This document shows positions 7,468 through 17,020 of a stretch of DNA of 33,347 nucleotides, piece by piece. The notes under the pieces were generated by a model. That model saw only the letters and a list, made by a program, of their open reading frames with translations, was not told where the DNA came from and searched no databases. The position numbers and the translations under genes were made by a program. Where the stretch lies: positions 1 through 33,347 of the forward strand of contig JAEESU010000009.1 in the NCBI GenBank assembly GCA_016290095.1. The letters are read 5' to 3'. The number at the start of each line of letters is the position of its first letter. Within the stretch, counting starts at the first letter, position 1. The DNA comes from Clostridia bacterium. Lineage in GTDB: Bacteria > Bacillota > Clostridia > TANB77 > CAG-508.

Positions 7468-7512
7468 TTTAAATTTCACCTCCGTTTAAAAATATAATTT
7501 TATGTTTAAAAA

Positions 7513-7622
7513 TTAAAGCCTCTTTACTACCTAATACGCACGAGGTAATAAAGAGGCAAATAAATTTACTCTTTTATAAATTACCTCGGTAGGATTTACT
7601 TTTGCACCTACTGTCTTAGGTT
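7513..7622 (-). promoter_or_regulatory. Ribosomal protein L10 leader (autoregulatory RNA)
   Basis: The minus-strand RNA downstream of rplA contains CCUAAGACAGUAGGUG and then CCUACCGAGGUAA, the conserved core of the Firmicutes L10 leader (the kink-turn region that binds L10 with L12). A strong hairpin follows at 7518-7557. The leader lies between rplA and rplJ with no promoter of its own in view, so it works on read-through from the upstream genes. Confidence 0.9.
7518..7557 (-). terminator. Attenuator hairpin of the L10 leader
   Basis: In the transcript GCCUCUUUAUUACCU pairs with AGGUAGUAAAGAGGC (one U-G wobble) around a 10-base loop, followed by UUUAAUUUUU. This is a Rho-independent terminator shape. 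It probably forms when L10-L12 binds the upstream core and reduces rplJ-rplL transcription. Confidence 0.85.
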
Positions 7623-7632
7623 AAATATTTAA

Positions 7633-8316
7633 CTATTTTTGGTTAATATAAATGCTTGGTCCCATAGTAGTTGTTAAAGTAACAGATTTAATATATTGTC
7701 CTTTAGCAGCTGCTGGTTTAGCTTTTATAATAGCATCCATAATTGTTTGATAGTTTTCTGTTAATTTTTCAGCTCCAAATGAAACTTTTCCAATTCCTAA
7801 GTGGATGATGTTGTTTTTATCTAATCTGTATTCAACTTTACCAGATTTGATTTCACTAACAGCTTTTGTTACATCCATTGTAACTGTTCCAGATTTAGGG
7901 TTTGGCATTAATCCTTTTGGTCCTAAAACTTTTCCTAGTCTTCCTATAACACCCATCATATCAGGTGTTGCAACGATAACGTCGTAGTCAAACCAGTTTT
8001 CTTTTTCAATTTTTGGAACTAATTCTTCAGCTCCTACATAATCTGCTCCAGCCTCTTGAGCTTCTTTTGCTTTGTCTCCTTTAGCAAATACTAAAACTTT
8101 TGCAGATTTACCTGTACCATGAGGTAATACAACTGTACCTCTAACTTGTTGATCAGCATGTTTTGAATCAACACCTAATTTAACGTGTAATTCTACTGTT
8201 TCATCAAATTTTGGTTTTGGCATTTTTTCAATAACTTCTAAAGCATCTTTTGCTTCATAAGCTTTTGAGCTGTCTATTAATTTAGCAGCTTCTACGTATC
8301 TTTTTCCTCTTTTCAT
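7633..8316 (-). CDS. rplA: 50S ribosomal protein L1
   Basis: The 227-residue protein is L1 of the 23S rRNA L1 stalk. It has the basic start [32 protein letters not shown], the [13 protein letters not shown] loop and the signature [21 protein letters not shown] in domain II. The ATG at 8314-8316 has GGAAGGAAAG just upstream; the earlier in-frame ATG at 8337 would swallow the ribosome site. It follows rplK with a 71-base gap and leads into the L10 leader. Confidence 0.98.
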
Positions 8317-12367: not shown

Positions 12368-13189
12368 CTACTCATGAATAATTTTTTCTACTATTGTGAA
12401 AAGTATAAAAAATACTAAGTTTACTAAAACAATTGTAGCACCTGTACTAATATTATATAAGTATGATAAATAAATTCCTAATAAGAAAGATACTACACTT
12501 ACTATTCCAGAGCTTATTACTACTCTTTTAAATGATTTAAATATTCTCATTGATGTTAATGCCGGAAAAATAATTATACTACTTATTAGCATAACACCCA
12601 TCATTCTCATTCCAATAACAATGATTAACGCGGTTAATACTGCAATAATTGTTGTATATCTATCTGATTTTAATCCACTTGCTTTAGCAAAATTTTCATC
12701 AAAAGTTACTACAAATAATTTCCTATAATAAATAACAAATAATATAGTAACAATTATACTTACTGCAACACTTAAAATTACATCAGCTTGGCTCATTGCT
12801 AATATACTTCCAAACATAAAATTACATACATCTGTATTCATTCCTGTTGTAACTGATGTAACAGCAACACCAATTGCTAATGCTGTACTTGAAATTAATG
12901 CTATTGCGCTATCACTTTTTATTCTGTGATTATTTCCTATTTTTAATAAGATTATGGCTGATATTGTAACACCTGGAATTGCTATATAAAGTGGTGTTGC
13001 ATATCCAAAAGCTGTAGCACATGTCATTATTCCAAATCCAACATGTGAAAGTCCATCACCAATCATGCTATATCTCTTAAGTACTAAACTAACACCTAAA
13101 AGTGCTGCACATAAACTAATTAATGTTCCAACTAAAACTGCTCTTTGAATAAAAATATGTGACATCATTTCTACTACTGTAGCAATCAT
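12368..13189 (-). CDS. znuB: Zinc ABC transporter permease
   Basis: The 273-residue integral membrane protein belongs to the ABC-3 metal permease family, with about seven to nine membrane helices and the conserved LIALCAALLGVSLVLKRYSMIGDGLSHVGFG-type start (here split around ALLGVSLVLKRYSMIGDG) and GMRMMGVMLISSIIIFPALTS in the second half. It forms the channel for zinc, or possibly manganese or iron, with ZnuC supplying energy. Its start ATG overlaps the znuC stop by one base, indicating coupled translation. Confidence 0.93.
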   Translation of the reverse strand: MIATVVEMMSHIFIQRAVLVGTLISLCAALLGVSLVLKRYSMIGDGLSHVGFGIMTCATAFGYATPLYIAIPGVTISAIILLKIGNNHRIKSDSAIALISSTALAIGVAVTSVTTGMNTDVCNFMFGSILAMSQADVILSVAVSIIVTILFVIYYRKLFVVTFDENFAKASGLKSDRYTTIIAVLTALIIVIGMRMMGVMLISSIIIFPALTSMRIFKSFKRVVISSGIVSVVSFLLGIYLSYLYNISTGATIVLVNLVFFILFTIVEKIIHE

Positions 13190-13860
13190 TATTTAGCACC
13201 TCCCATCTTAAATTCAGAAGGTTTTCCTATGAATTTTACTTCGCCATTTATTATTTCAATAACTTTATCTGCATAATTTAATGCTCTTTCAATATCGTGT
13301 GAAACCATTAAAATTGTAATATTTTCTTCTCTTTTTATTTTGTCTAATAATTCATATATTTGTTTTGCAATGCTTGGATCTAATCCATTTGTAGGTTCAT
13401 CAAGAATTATAATGTCTTTAGTTGCACATAAAGCTCTTGCAATTAATACTCTTTGTTGTTGACCTCCAGATAAATCTGCAAAGCATTGCTTTCTTATATT
13501 ATATATGTTTAATTTCTCCATTACTTGCTTTGCTTCTTCTTTATCAGATTTTGTATAAAATATTTTGCTTGGATGATTTGATATTGTTCCTGATAAAACA
13601 ACTTCTTCTATTGTTGCTGGAAAGTTAGTTTGAATATCACTTTTTTGTGGTAAATATCCAATATTTTTTTCTTTTATAATATTACCTGTATAATCTTCAT
13701 TAAGTCCTAAAATACATTTTAGTAATGTACTTTTTCCAGAACCATTTTCACCAACTATACAAGTGAAACTTCCACTTTCAATATTTAAGTTTATATGTTT
13801 TAAAGTATCTTTTTTAGTAGGATAGCTAAAACATAAATCTTTTATTTGGATTAAATCCAT
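13189..13860 (-). CDS. znuC: Zinc ABC transporter ATP-binding protein
   Basis: The 223-residue ATPase has Walker A GENGSGKST (about residues 38-46), the Q-loop in YLPQKSD, signature LSGGQQQR (129-136) and Walker B IIILDEPTNG (149-158), with the switch His in MVSHDIE. It is the cytoplasmic energy unit of the importer encoded by its neighbours. It is 20 bases downstream of znuA and overlaps znuB. Confidence 0.95.
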   Translation of the reverse strand: MDLIQIKDLCFSYPTKKDTLKHINLNIESGSFTCIVGENGSGKSTLLKCILGLNEDYTGNIIKEKNIGYLPQKSDIQTNFPATIEEVVLSGTISNHPSKIFYTKSDKEEAKQVMEKLNIYNIRKQCFADLSGGQQQRVLIARALCATKDIIILDEPTNGLDPSIAKQIYELLDKIKREENITILMVSHDIERALNYADKVIEIINGEVKFIGKPSEFKMGGAK

Positions 13861-13880
13861 TTTTAATCTCCCCCTATTTA

Positions 13881-14843
13881 TTATTGTAATGCTTTCTTTA
13901 AAACTTCAATATTTCTTGACATTAAACTTACCCATGTTTCTCCATTATTGAAATCTTCTAATGAAACATTGTGTAATGATTGAATTCGAAGTGCCTCGCA
14001 ATTTTCTCCTGTTTCATCTGCTATTGTTTTTGCAACTCTTCCATTGTTTAATTCAATATATAAAACAACTGGAATTTTTTCTTCTTTAACTAGTTTTTCT
14101 AAATATGCTATTGTTGCAGCTGATGGTTCTGTTTCTGTACTACATCCTGAAAAAGCTGCACTTACTTTTAGTTTATAATAATTTATAAAATATTGCATTG
14201 GCATTTTGTCACCAAATACTAATCTATTTCTTACTTTATTATCAACTACTTCTTGAATTTTGCTATCTACTTCTTTAATTTGATTAATGTAATTTTCTGC
14301 ATTTGCTAAATATGTATCTTTATTTTCTGGGTCTAGTTCTATAACTTTTTCTCTTAATATTTCAACCATTTTTATAGCATTTGATGGAGATGTCCAAATA
14401 TGCTCATTAAATGCACCTTCTTCTTCCTCTTCTTCCTCTTCTTCTGCTCCATCTATTTCTTCTTCATCTTCTTTATCAACATAGTCTGATATACAAATTA
14501 CTTTTTTAGGTTCCTCTATCGCTCCTAAAACTTTATCAGACCATTTTTCCATTCCTCCACCTACATAAACAAATAGATCTGCATTTTGAATCTTTATTAA
14601 ATCTCCAGCTGATGGATCATAGCTATGAGAATCTTTTCCTGGTCCTAGTAAAAAGTCTACATTAAATTTTTCACTATCTCCTACTATAGCTCTTAAAAAA
14701 TCGTAACTTGCAAAGTTACTTGCAACTAAATTCATCTTTCCATTATTTTCTGTTTTTTTATTTCCAGATCTAGAAAGTGCATATCCTAGTCCTACAACTA
14801 TTGCTATCAACAGCATTATTAATAATATTTTTTTCATTTTCAT
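13881..14843 (-). CDS. znuA: Zinc ABC transporter substrate-binding protein with Glu-rich loop
   Basis: The 320-residue protein is a cluster A-I metal-binding protein. Likely ligands are the His in DSHSYDPSAGD and in NEHIWTSP, and the C-terminal acidic site; the third region reads FGDKMPMQYFINYYKLK and GCSTETEPSAAT, the form common in clostridial zinc binders rather than the classic FHDAF motif. Instead of the His-rich loop usual before the second ligand it has a run of nine Glu plus further acidic residues (about 131-143), encoded by GAA/GAG repeats. The N terminus is a hydrophobic segment (residues 5-23) with no lipobox Cys, so it is anchored by an uncleaved helix or released. It is third in the operon. 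Confidence 0.92.
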   Translation of the reverse strand: MKMKKILLIMLLIAIVVGLGYALSRSGNKKTENNGKMNLVASNFASYDFLRAIVGDSEKFNVDFLLGPGKDSHSYDPSAGDLIKIQNADLFVYVGGGMEKWSDKVLGAIEEPKKVICISDYVDKEDEEEIDGAEEEEEEEEEGAFNEHIWTSPSNAIKMVEILREKVIELDPENKDTYLANAENYINQIKEVDSKIQEVVDNKVRNRLVFGDKMPMQYFINYYKLKVSAAFSGCSTETEPSAATIAYLEKLVKEEKIPVVLYIELNNGRVAKTIADETGENCEALRIQSLHNVSLEDFNNGETWVSLMSRNIEVLKKALQ

Positions 14844-14885
14844 TATATTTTCCTTTCCTTAAAATAAGCTTAAAACACTTTAAAC

Positions 14886-15176
14886 TTATTCATTAAATTG
14901 CACCTTTTGAAATACTAGTGATTCTTGAATTAAACTTGAATTTCTATAGTTTACTAGTGATGCAATTAAGTATATTAATATTTCGTATTGCAATAATATT
15001 TCTAAAACCGAACTATATCTTGTAACTATTCTTGCTACTTCTATAATTTGGCATATTATACAATTTTCATCATGACATTCATAAACATGGTGTTCATTTG
15101 CAAGTGCAAAACTGTATGTTAAAATATTTAAAATCAAAAAAATTATTACTAAATTTTTAATTAAATTTCTTATCAT
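14886..15176 (-). CDS. Small membrane protein with His/Cys metal-type motif
   Basis: The 96-residue protein has an N-terminal hydrophobic helix (NLVIIFLILNILTYSFALA), then HHVYECHDENCIICQII, where two His, three Cys and another His fall within 14 residues, then a second hydrophobic stretch (LLQYEILIYLIASLV). The cluster would face the outside and could hold zinc or be redox active. I do not know a named family. The ATG at 15174-15176 follows AGGAGAACTT; an in-frame start upstream would overlap the regulator gene. It sits between the Zur-like regulator and znuA, so a role in zinc delivery or sensing is a fair inference. Confidence 0.65.
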   Translation of the reverse strand: MIRNLIKNLVIIFLILNILTYSFALANEHHVYECHDENCIICQIIEVARIVTRYSSVLEILLQYEILIYLIASLVNYRNSSLIQESLVFQKVQFNE

Positions 15177-15187
15177 AAGTTCTCCTA

Positions 15188-15587
15188 TTATTTTTTTGCG
15201 CATTTACCGCAAACTCCATAAATAATTGTATTGTAGTCAACTTCAAAATCGTGGTCTTCTACTATATGCTTTGTTGCTTGCATGAATTCTCTACAATCCA
15301 AGTGCTGCATCTTTCCACACTTTTTGCACTTTAAGTGGAAATGTTTTGAGCAACCATCTTTTATATATTGATAATATTTTGTATGATCTCTAACTTCTGT
15401 TCTTACTTTATTTTCTTTTTCTAGTATTGTTAAAGACCTATAAATTGTTGTAAGGCCTACTCCTATATTGAATTCTTGCATATATTCTAAAATGTCCTTG
15501 CCGGCTTACAAACTTATCTGAATTTTCATAAAGATATTTTTCAACAAAATACCTCTGTGTAGTATTATATTTTTTTAAATTTTCCAT
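15188..15587 (-). pseudogene. zur: Fur/Zur-family regulator, interrupted by a one-base frameshift
   Basis: Two overlapping frames together make a 133-residue Fur-type protein: MENLKKYNTTQRYFVEKYLY...KFVS from the ATG at 15585-15587, then GKDILEYMQEFNIGVGLTTIYRSL in the next frame. The winged helix, the metal-binding HFHLKCKKCGK motif and the closing CGKC pair are all intact. The change of frame falls at the CC of 15503-15504: removing one C gives the smooth reading VSGKDILEYM. The C sits in GCCGGC next to a rare CGG codon. The ORF may be truly broken, corrected by +1 frameshifting, or a sequencing error. Its place before the zinc genes points to Zur. AUG follows GGAGATGAAAAA. Confidence 0.8.
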
Positions 15588-15714: not shown

Positions 15715-16743
15715 TTATTTACATATTTTATAGATTATATCTTTATATTGGTCAATTAATCTTCTATAACTTTCAACAGATATATTTTCATTCACTTCGT
15801 GTGCAGTAACTGGACCTGTACCAAGTATTATACGTTTGCATCCAGATACTTTTCCACCTTCTGTCATAAAATTCGTTGTTTTTATTTCGTCTACAAAATC
15901 AATATCATCTGCAAATGGCATTGTTTTTTCAATTATATTTACTTCTGCATTATATTTTTTTGAAAGTTCATCTATTTTATTAATGATTTTTAGCACATGT
16001 TTTTCATCAGCAATTCGAAAATCTATACTCACATTGCAAAATGCAGGTACAGAATTTTTAGCAGTTCCTCCATTTATTATTCCAACATTCATTGTTGTAT
16101 AAGGAATCTCATAAAATTTAATTTCATCTTTCTTAATTTCATTATTATAAAATTCATCAAGATCATTCAAAAATTTTACTGCATTCATATTTGCACTAAT
16201 TCCTTTTGCAGGATTGCTTGAGTGAGCTTTTAACCCTTTAAAATAAATCTCATATTCTAACAAACCCTTGTGACCTGTATAAATTACATTATTTGTCGGT
16301 TCTCCAAAAATCATAATATCAGGAAATTTTTCATTATTATCTACAATTTCTTGTACCCCTGTAAATAATATTTCTTCATCATATGTAAAATATAATTTCA
16401 TTCCTGATTTTAATTTACTAAAATTAATTTGTGATACTGTGTCAAGCATTGCCGCTATTCCGCCTTTCATATCACAGCTTCCAAGTCCATATAAATATCC
16501 ATCCTTTAATGTTAAATCAAATGGATTCTTAAATTCATCAATATATTCTACTGTATCTGTGTGTCCTAAAAATCCCAGTTTTGGATTTTCTCCAATACTC
16601 ATTATTAAATCTTTGGTTTTGTATTCTGTTTTAAAACCTAAACTCTTTAAATAATCTTCAATATAATTGATTATCTCTTTATTTTCTTTGTCTTTAATGG
16701 TATTAAACCTTACCAAATCTTTTAAAATTTTAAATTCTTCCAT
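15715..16743 (-). CDS. M20-family metallopeptidase / deacylase (ArgE/DapE type)
   Basis: The 342-residue enzyme carries the M20 di-zinc signature: GHTDTVEY (His61, Asp63), GLGSCDMKGG with bridging Asp91, and YDEEI with general-base Glu123 and ligand Glu124; a typical dimerisation insert follows AHSSNPAKG. The family removes acyl groups from amino acids (ArgE, DapE) or cleaves dipeptides. This organism has a diaminopimelate dehydrogenase (17402-18382), so a DapE role is less likely, and ArgE or a peptidase is favoured. The ATG follows AAGGAGGGAG. Its expression appears to be governed by an attenuator with a leader peptide (16768-16925). Confidence 0.9.
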   Translation of the reverse strand: MEEFKILKDLVRFNTIKDKENKEIINYIEDYLKSLGFKTEYKTKDLIMSIGENPKLGFLGHTDTVEYIDEFKNPFDLTLKDGYLYGLGSCDMKGGIAAMLDTVSQINFSKLKSGMKLYFTYDEEILFTGVQEIVDNNEKFPDIMIFGEPTNNVIYTGHKGLLEYEIYFKGLKAHSSNPAKGISANMNAVKFLNDLDEFYNNEIKKDEIKFYEIPYTTMNVGIINGGTAKNSVPAFCNVSIDFRIADEKHVLKIINKIDELSKKYNAEVNIIEKTMPFADDIDFVDEIKTTNFMTEGGKVSGCKRIILGTGPVTAHEVNENISVESYRRLIDQYKDIIYKICK

Positions 16744-16767
16744 ATTTTTTCTCCCTCCTTACATAAC

Positions 16768-16810
16768 AAAAAAGATGTATAAGTGTTTTCTTAATCACTC
16801 ATACATCTTT
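16768..16810 (-). terminator. Attenuator terminator before the M20 peptidase
   Basis: The transcript forms a 15-bp stem (AAAGAUGUAUGAGUG with CACUUAUACAUCUUU, one G-U pair, 10-base loop) ending in six U at 16773-16768. It stands about 8 bases before the ribosome site of the peptidase, so it would stop transcription before the gene. Its 5' arm (16793-16805) can instead pair with 16856-16868 in the leader ORF (12 of 13 positions, one C-A mismatch), which would prevent termination. Confidence 0.85.
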
Positions 16811-16841
16811 ATTAGTCTTGTTTTTAAAATACTATGAATTT

Positions 16842-16925
16842 TTACATGACTAATACGTATGGGTGATTTACACTCCATACGTGATGTCTATTATTTAATT
16901 TGCAAAATAAATTTTGAAAATTCAT
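16842..16925 (-). CDS. Putative 27-codon regulatory leader peptide
   Basis: An ATG at 16923-16925, 7 bases after GAGGT, opens a 27-codon frame ending in TAA. The peptide begins MNFQNLFC, contains NNRHHVW at residues 11-17 and ends VLVM. Residues 15-24 are encoded by a hairpin: segment 1 (16871-16881) pairs with segment 2 (16856-16865), 10 pairs with one bulged A. A second stem (16848-16854 with 16811-16817, 7 perfect pairs) follows. The layout of leader ORF, 1:2 hairpin, 2:3 antiterminator and 3:4 terminator is that of trp/his-type attenuators. A ribosome stalled at the two His codons would cover segment 1. There is no proof that the frame is translated. Confidence 0.7.
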   Translation of the reverse strand: MNFQNLFCKLNNRHHVWSVNHPYVLVM

Positions 16926-16943
16926 AATATTTACCTCGAAAAT

Positions 16944-16972
16944 ATTATAACATATATTAAAATAATTGTCTA
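16944..16972 (-). promoter_or_regulatory. Promoter of the attenuator-peptidase unit
   Basis: Minus-strand TAGACA (16967-16972) and a perfect TATAAT (16944-16949) are 17 bases apart. The start of transcription would fall near 16937, leaving a very short leader before the leader-peptide ribosome site, so the exact start matters. The -35 box begins immediately after the terminator of the upstream cassette. Confidence 0.75.
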
Positions 16973-16973
16973 T

Positions 16974-17004
16974 AAAAAACGGTGCACCCTCAGAAGAGTG
17001 CACC
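16974..17004 (-). terminator. Terminator of the small tail-anchored-protein cassette
   Basis: GGTGCAC (16981-16987) and GTGCACC (16998-17004) form a perfect 7-bp GC-rich stem, with a small inner TC/GA pairing, followed in the minus transcript by GUUUUUU. Confidence 0.85.
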
Positions 17005-17020
17005 TATCCTCATTGCATTG

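Follow-up and report, generated by a model that had tools for sequence, protein, structure and literature searches.

What regulates the gene for an M20 metallo-amidohydrolase in a member of the Clostridia, and which signal does the leader of this gene read? The locus lies within 33,347 nt of DNA (contig JAEESU010000009.1), the whole of which is referred to here as the window. A preliminary description of this DNA had pointed to a leader-peptide attenuator upstream of the gene, responding to His, Arg or an antibiotic by a route not known to be described. Leader-peptide attenuation is classical, and amino-acid attenuators of this type are less often reported in Firmicutes than T-boxes.

Anatomy of the leader

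The elements of the locus are as follows.

16974..17004, minus strand: terminator-like hairpin 3' of the upstream gene
16944..16972, minus strand: promoter, with -35 TAGACA at 16972-16967, a spacer of 17 nt and -10 TATAAT at 16949-16944
16937-16934, minus strand: ribosome site GAGG, 5' of the leader ORF
16842..16925, minus strand: leader ORF of 27 codons plus TAA, MNFQNLFCKLNNRHHVWSVNHPYVLVM
16881..16889, minus strand: candidate sensor codons Arg13 (AGA), His14 (CAT) and His15 (CAC), at the position of the Trp codons in trpB-type leaders and within the antitermination window of the masked folds
16871..16882, minus strand: segment 1, partner of segment 2
16855..16867, minus strand: segment 2, partner of segment 1 or segment 3
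16848..16854, minus strand: 5' arm of an inner stem that extends the antiterminator, partner of 16811-16817
16811..16817, minus strand: 3' arm of the inner stem, partner of 16848-16854
16794..16806, minus strand: segment 3, partner of segment 2, or the bulk of the 5' arm of the terminator
16768..16810, minus strand: intrinsic terminator (3:4), arms 16810-16796 and 16785-16771, with 15 pairs and a six-U run
15715..16743, minus strand: controlled gene, an M20 metallo-amidohydrolase of 342 aa, nearest to acetylornithine deacetylase/DapE but below cut-offs

The promoter, ORF, ribosome site and three pairings of the preliminary description are all present, with coordinates that agree to within one base. 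The perfect TATAAT noted there belongs to a promoter matching 11 of 12 consensus bases overall, with its 17-nt spacer. We guess that transcription starts at about 16937, in which case the terminated leader RNA would measure about 170 nt. Hairpin 1:2, earlier counted as 10 pairs plus a bulge, joins 16882-16871 to 16867-16855 through 11 pairs around one bulge. The antiterminator 2:3 (16867-16855 with 16806-16794) was found with the 12 of 13 positions paired and the 7-bp inner stem (16854-16848 with 16817-16811) ascribed to it, and the terminator likewise with its 15 pairs and six U (16773-16768), three of these U being already counted among the pairs. The pairings 1:2, 2:3 and 3:4, the last being the terminator, are mutually exclusive. 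The transcript 16744-16940 folds at -50.8 kcal/mol, whereas its shuffled versions average -26.2 (sd 3.6); this corresponds to z -6.9, and none of 200 shuffles was as stable. The leader terminator is missing from a simple terminator scan because its loop of 10 exceeds the limit of 8 set in that scan. Since the hairpin at 17004-16974 ends the upstream gene, the leader is probably a transcription unit of its own, judging from the sequence.

No Rfam model, the His leader RF00514 included, reached its threshold over the window leader, and 16650-17020 gave only sub-threshold hits. The best of these hits, caiA (E 0.014, 27.2 of a gathering threshold of 55.5), falls on the terminator hairpin and was rejected. 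Among 18 related loci there were two tRNAs and two sub-threshold hits, none of them over the leader. A T-box was also rejected, with no hit in the window or in the 20 M20 loci, out of 30 retrieved, that were scanned. Elsewhere in the window, a ribosomal protein L10 leader (RF00557, 62.1 bits) lies at 7503-7638 before a gene that looks like rplJ.

Relatives of the leader and conservation of its pairings

The leader belongs to a family that spans gut and rumen Clostridia. A second, diverged copy in the same genome, found by DNA search (85% identity over 72 bases), precedes a histidine-racemase-like gene and, together with the frame and pairing conserved in relatives, places the leader beyond chance. 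A search of relatives matched 62 of 144 genomes, mostly through short weak matches, and at that stage five places were accepted as genuine in addition to the window; one of the weak matches (L014 in genome G018) later proved real as L058. Pattern searches matched 4 of 385 genomes in the order and yielded 14 stretches in the GTDB species set, nine judged real and five judged chance. Pattern matches L039, L042, L047, L050 and L051 and a viral match, L053, were rejected as chance. The DNA, relatives and pattern searches together gave 11 distinct leaders, window included, from which covariance model R1 was built. R1 gave matches in 13 of the 53 genomes searched in the genus; ten of these were new, and every new leader stands in front of trpB or a TrpB-like gene. 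With model R2, 37 out of 385 genomes in the order gave a match, of which two were put down to chance and two were partial. Model R3 picked up leaders in 13 of the 199 genomes belonging to one large genus, and five were new. In a class sample of 391 genomes, searched with stricter filters, R2 matched four, namely the window's genome, a second genome from its order and two that we judged to be chance; no convincing leader was found in this sample outside the window's order. Model matches L097, L098, L130 and L131 were rejected as chance, and a reverse-strand match on L002, attributed to palindromic hairpins, was left out of alignment A4.

The leaders tabulated number 48, of which 20 precede trpB, nine a TrpB-like gene and 19 other genes (14 M20, two racemase, two racemase then M20 and one aminotransferase). 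Dropped before this count were a partial match (L095), a trpB-type leader with the peptide LNNWWTVW, a stop two codons later and an incomplete model match (L096), repeats of the same locus (L001, L003-L008, L034-L038, L045, L052, L054-L056, L067, L072, L074, L088, L129, L137) and leader-bearing M20 loci that were repeats (L099-L103, L106-L108, L110, L115, L116); the almost identical L044 and L049 were both retained. One genome (G787) carries two leader loci, L043 and L046. At E < 1e-6 no such leader was detected at 19 of the 30 M20 loci examined, among 66 M20 places found.

Helices 1:2 and 3:4 both covary. In 11 leaders aligned with MAFFT, helices 1:2 and 3:4 are paired in 95.6% of cells and 6 of 26 pairs change on both sides, a count reached by none of 500 shuffles. 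With 43 leaders fitted to the covariance model, paired cells make up 90.8%, and two-sided changes are seen at 18 of 24 pairs, some of them in helix 1:2, which again none of 500 shuffles matched. Alignments A4 and A5 are fitted in this way and favour the structure; A2 is not. Helix 2:3 pairs in 96.2% of cells, with no two-sided change and no signal above shuffles, so that its support is constancy only; the freedom of segment 2 would be limited by its two partners. The ORF and the pairings are thus kept in relatives, and the segment rule of trp/his attenuators invoked in the preliminary description holds, for 2:3 by constancy without covariation.

Candidate sensor codons and the nature of the signal

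In all 48 leaders an ATG 30-66 nt upstream (39-60 nt in a subset of 42) opens a frame through GTA TGG, or through GCA TGG in L093, while neither of the other two frames is so opened in any of them; ribosome sites were scored here against a permissive set of motifs. Within the ORF, the upstream portion shows an excess of third-position differences in trpB-type leaders (651 of 1428). No such excess is seen in the non-trp leaders (139 of 379), which lends no support to translation of the His-type leaders. Overall, the conserved frame suggests that the leader ORF is translated.

The three codons immediately 5' of GTA, hereafter the sensor triplet, change with the gene downstream. Trp is found in the triplet of 29/29 trpB or TrpB-like leaders (e.g. 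LNNWWNVW) versus 0/19 others, and His in that of 16/19 non-trp leaders versus 0/29 trpB or TrpB-like ones, although the Fisher values for these counts assume independence among related sequences and so exaggerate the significance. In the TrpB-like subtype a single sensor Trp (NNWQ) is present in all nine leaders (L061, L064, L076, L078, L079, L084, L085, L133 and L135). Two adjacent His are common to the racemase leaders, the racemase-hisS leader and 4 of 14 M20 leaders; the triplets of 12 of the 14 contain one His or more. KSH is the triplet of two further non-trp leaders, and the three that lack His read RRR (L048), RRQ (L081) and NQN (L041). Arg occurs in 12/19 non-trp triplets and 2/29 trpB or TrpB-like ones, and three genomes of one genus carry RHQ, RRQ and RRR. 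The window leader has only two adjacent His codons, and the triplets of 42 leaders at most two. The regulatory codons appear to match the target pathway for the trpB, racemase and racemase-hisS leaders; for M20, whose leaders also carry Arg and whose substrate is only putative, they may do so.

The position of the sensor codons was probed by folding the window leader up to segment 3 under a simulated ribosome footprint. With the A site on codons 3, 6, 9 or 11, hairpin 1:2 remains; on codons 12-16, 2:3 forms with 12 pairs, and on codons 17 and 18 with fewer; on the tested codons among 19-26 neither forms, and at the stop codon a partial 1:2 of 6 pairs returns. The result at codon 12 varies with the length of upstream RNA folded, a run on 43 leaders giving 1:2 there, but with the A site at codons 13-16 hairpin 1:2 is removed in favour of 2:3, in line with the earlier suggestion that a ribosome at Arg13-His14-His15 masks segment 1. 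Across the 43 leaders, 2:3 was scored as formed when it had 7 pairs or more. By that measure the three sensor codons, taken in order as the A site, give it in 38, 41 and 41 leaders, and the Val and Trp codons that follow in 41 and 39. The count is 6 when the A site lies six codons before Val and falls to none when it lies four codons past Val; five leaders, all trpB-type, form 2:3 without a ribosome. When the full terminator is included it wins at equilibrium in every window case tested, ribosome mask or not, so the decision must be kinetic and fall before RNA polymerase reaches segment 4. Classical attenuators likewise decide before segment 4 is transcribed.

Several lineages carry a second small ORF 3' of the terminator. 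At trpB-type loci it is present in 20/20 (19 by scan and L091, where it is in frame with trpB, by eye), with Trp within residues 2-8 in all 20 and two or more Trp in 16, and at 16 of the 20 it overruns the trpB start in another frame (L057-L060, L062, L063, L065, L066, L073, L077, L080, L083, L086, L087, L089-L091, L132, L134, L136). Where the scan offered several candidates, the ATG ORF starting near MESDWHW was chosen. A small downstream ORF near QENFIKNQYKLHW is listed for 7 of the 9 TrpB-like loci. At trpB-type loci the second ORF is a possible translational switch, to judge by its codons and placement. The leader peptide of Bacillus subtilis rtpA (anti-TRAP) acts on translation through a Trp-codon leader ORF; it resembles the trpB-type second ORF in having Trp codons near the start of a gene, but sits with a T-box rather than with a leader-peptide attenuator.

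The reading that best accounts for these observations, and the one that we think probable, is a ribosome-mediated trp/his-type attenuator that senses charged tRNA-His and drives a histidine-salvage M20 amidohydrolase. Its anatomy, its conservation, the covariation of 1:2 and 3:4, the codon swap and the failure to find HisD (see below) rest on sequence, and from these we infer stalling, the kinetics and the M20 substrate. Of the signals put forward earlier, His is the best supported, with HH before the racemase and racemase-hisS genes and Trp codons before trpB.

The same attenuator might instead read Arg, or Arg and His together, with M20 releasing basic amino acids. Beyond the frequency of Arg in non-trp triplets, this draws on the RRR, RRQ and RRH leaders that precede M20, on the resemblance of the window M20 to acetylornithine deacetylase, on the rarity of argininosuccinate synthase (over cut-off in only 2 of 17 genomes, with weak partial matches in 14) and on an Arg/Lys-rich second ORF between terminator and M20 in 7 of 14 M20 leaders, five near KRRYYRRKSEKP and two RKRWRK-like (loci L044, L045, L046, L049, L052, L070 and L071). 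That second ORF is absent in the window, however, and no Arg stands in the LHH and VHH triplets found before a racemase and a racemase-hisS operon or in the IHH of one M20 leader (L069), which makes HH the shared core. We therefore consider an Arg signal unlikely, while a dual or shifted His/Arg specificity is possible.

A fixed arrest peptide of the TnaC or Erm leader type, sensing a small molecule or antibiotic in the exit tunnel, would explain why N-N before and V-W after the triplet recur in many His and Trp leaders, beyond the needs of a pure codon sensor. V-W nevertheless lies within RNA segment 1, which can account for its constancy; in L044/L006 and L049/L008 the peptide after V-W-S continues in another frame while the RNA is kept, and no resistance gene was recognised among the leader targets read. 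Because the triplet carries His or Trp according to the target gene, an arrest peptide is very improbable, and the antibiotic sensing raised in the preliminary description is unlikely. That the locus is a plain intrinsic terminator with an unrelated ORF upstream and no translational control could be argued from an anatomy and pairing deduced from sequence and folding, but the frame conserved in relatives, the competing helices, their covariation and the codon swap make this hardly credible.

Controlled genes and proposed histidine salvage

The window M20 falls short of the acetylornithine deacetylase model TIGR01892 (206.5 bits against a cut-off of 297.7). Directly 3' of it on the same strand, the window carries a FUR-family regulator and metal uptake cluster (12368-15481), with ZnuA recognised by model and a permease and ATPase by eye. 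Three proteins from trp loci were scanned and confirmed, two as TrpB (596.8 and 594.1 bits, cut-off 392.45) and one as TrpB-like (682 bits, cut-off 366); apart from the hisS described next, remaining leader targets were identified by eye from translations. At L043 (2483-4825) a leader, a histidine-racemase-like gene and hisS (419.7 bits, cut-off 286.75) follow in a row on one strand. M20 adjoins the racemase in L040, L114, L115 and L127, in both orders, and a racemase remnant lies beside M20 in one genome (L092/L106). In the window's genus, the same leader with triplet NQN precedes a HisC-like aminotransferase with an interrupted frame (L041), by decay or assembly error.

The racemase-like gene of the window's own genome scores below the histidine racemase models (88.0 bits against 400 for HisR, 73.6 against 300 for CntK), as do two further ones. 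The six racemase-like genes read all keep both catalytic Cys and two Glu, in the motifs EFC and E-x-x-C, which were assigned from their spacing relative to Cys67 and Cys209 of HisR, not from structure. In histidine racemase the two Glu have been proposed to bind imidazole (PMC11602996).

HisD was not found in any of 19 leader-bearing genomes (17 non-trp and 2 trpB-type; thresholds of 90% completeness and 5% contamination are satisfied by 11 of them), by a search that can miss, since its control recovered HisD in 13 of 14 genomes and failed in Bacillus subtilis, which we take to have hisD; this failure slightly lowers our confidence in the overall reading. TrpA was not found in 22/22 genomes, namely the window's own and 21 that carry a trpB or TrpB-like leader, with a control of 14/14. 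These results fit salvage, in which TrpB would make Trp from scavenged indole, and the products of the His-type genes would yield His, by synthesis or by release, from scavenged precursors.

In the proposed mechanism, RNA polymerase would start near 16937 and a ribosome would follow on the 27-codon leader. With ample His-tRNA, the ribosome would pass the sensor codons and cover segment 2 up to the stop codon, blocking 2:3 and letting the 3:4 terminator form; in the absence of translation, 1:2 would form and termination would follow as well. With scarce His-tRNA, the ribosome would wait at His14-His15, covering segment 1, so that 2:3 would pair before segment 4 is made and the M20 gene would be transcribed. 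The M20 enzyme would most likely free histidine from an N-acyl or dipeptide form, working alongside the histidine-racemase-like gene under the same switch elsewhere in the genome.

How new is such a switch? The Trp leader is RF00513 in Rfam, and the enterobacterial his leader has seven adjacent His codons. The window leader shares with the enterobacterial trp/his attenuators (His leader RF00514) a leader ORF with putative regulatory codons, the 1:2/2:3/3:4 pairings and the U-run terminator, but differs in having no Rfam match, a target outside his biosynthesis, Clostridia hosts and two adjacent His codons. Branched-chain leader-peptide attenuators have reportedly been seen in Staphylococcus aureus and Listeria monocytogenes; compared by description only, these also serve amino-acid attenuation in Firmicutes, for other amino acids and targets. 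Other His leader peptides in Firmicutes are in print. In bacilli, hisS and hisZ paralogs are preceded by His leader peptides (PMC2965389); these resemble the window family in His codons, Firmicutes hosts and the hisS target, and are set apart, by description only, by their stretches of His codons. Candidate His attenuators of the Bacillus cereus group, the Clostridium difficile group with Lutispora, and Erysipelotrichales (PMC9413887) are also His-codon transcription attenuators in Firmicutes, but have, again by description only, three to five adjacent His, against two in the window, and mostly precede his operons. The words M20, peptidase and racemase are absent from PMC9413887 and peptidase from PMC2965389, while PMC7438024, which maps histidine racemases of zincophore clusters, lacks the term M20. 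In the literature listed (without bioRxiv and most subscription journals), no M20 gene under such a leader was found, nor did the family of RNAs, the swap of its codons or its target genes turn up there or in Rfam. The earlier claim of an undescribed route therefore stands for the M20 target in the literature searched but not for His leader peptides in Firmicutes as such: the kind of attenuator is already known there, and what appears to be new is the family, the swap and the targets.

There is, in our estimate, about an even chance that a single RNA scaffold has been re-coded from Trp to His, perhaps also to Arg, by swapping two or three codons, with the second ORF adding a translational layer of matching codons in several lineages. 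If true, a Trp switch for a lone trpB would become a His switch for an undescribed histidine-salvage set, proposed to comprise the racemase, the M20 amidohydrolase, the HisC-like aminotransferase and hisS. The family would also offer a natural series in which RNA structure is constant and codons vary with the target, making codon choice, spacing and ribosome footprint testable. More broadly, it points to a role in histidine salvage for an M20 family and for a racemase of gut bacteria whose genomes yielded no HisD, and the leader family may serve as a marker for further salvage genes.
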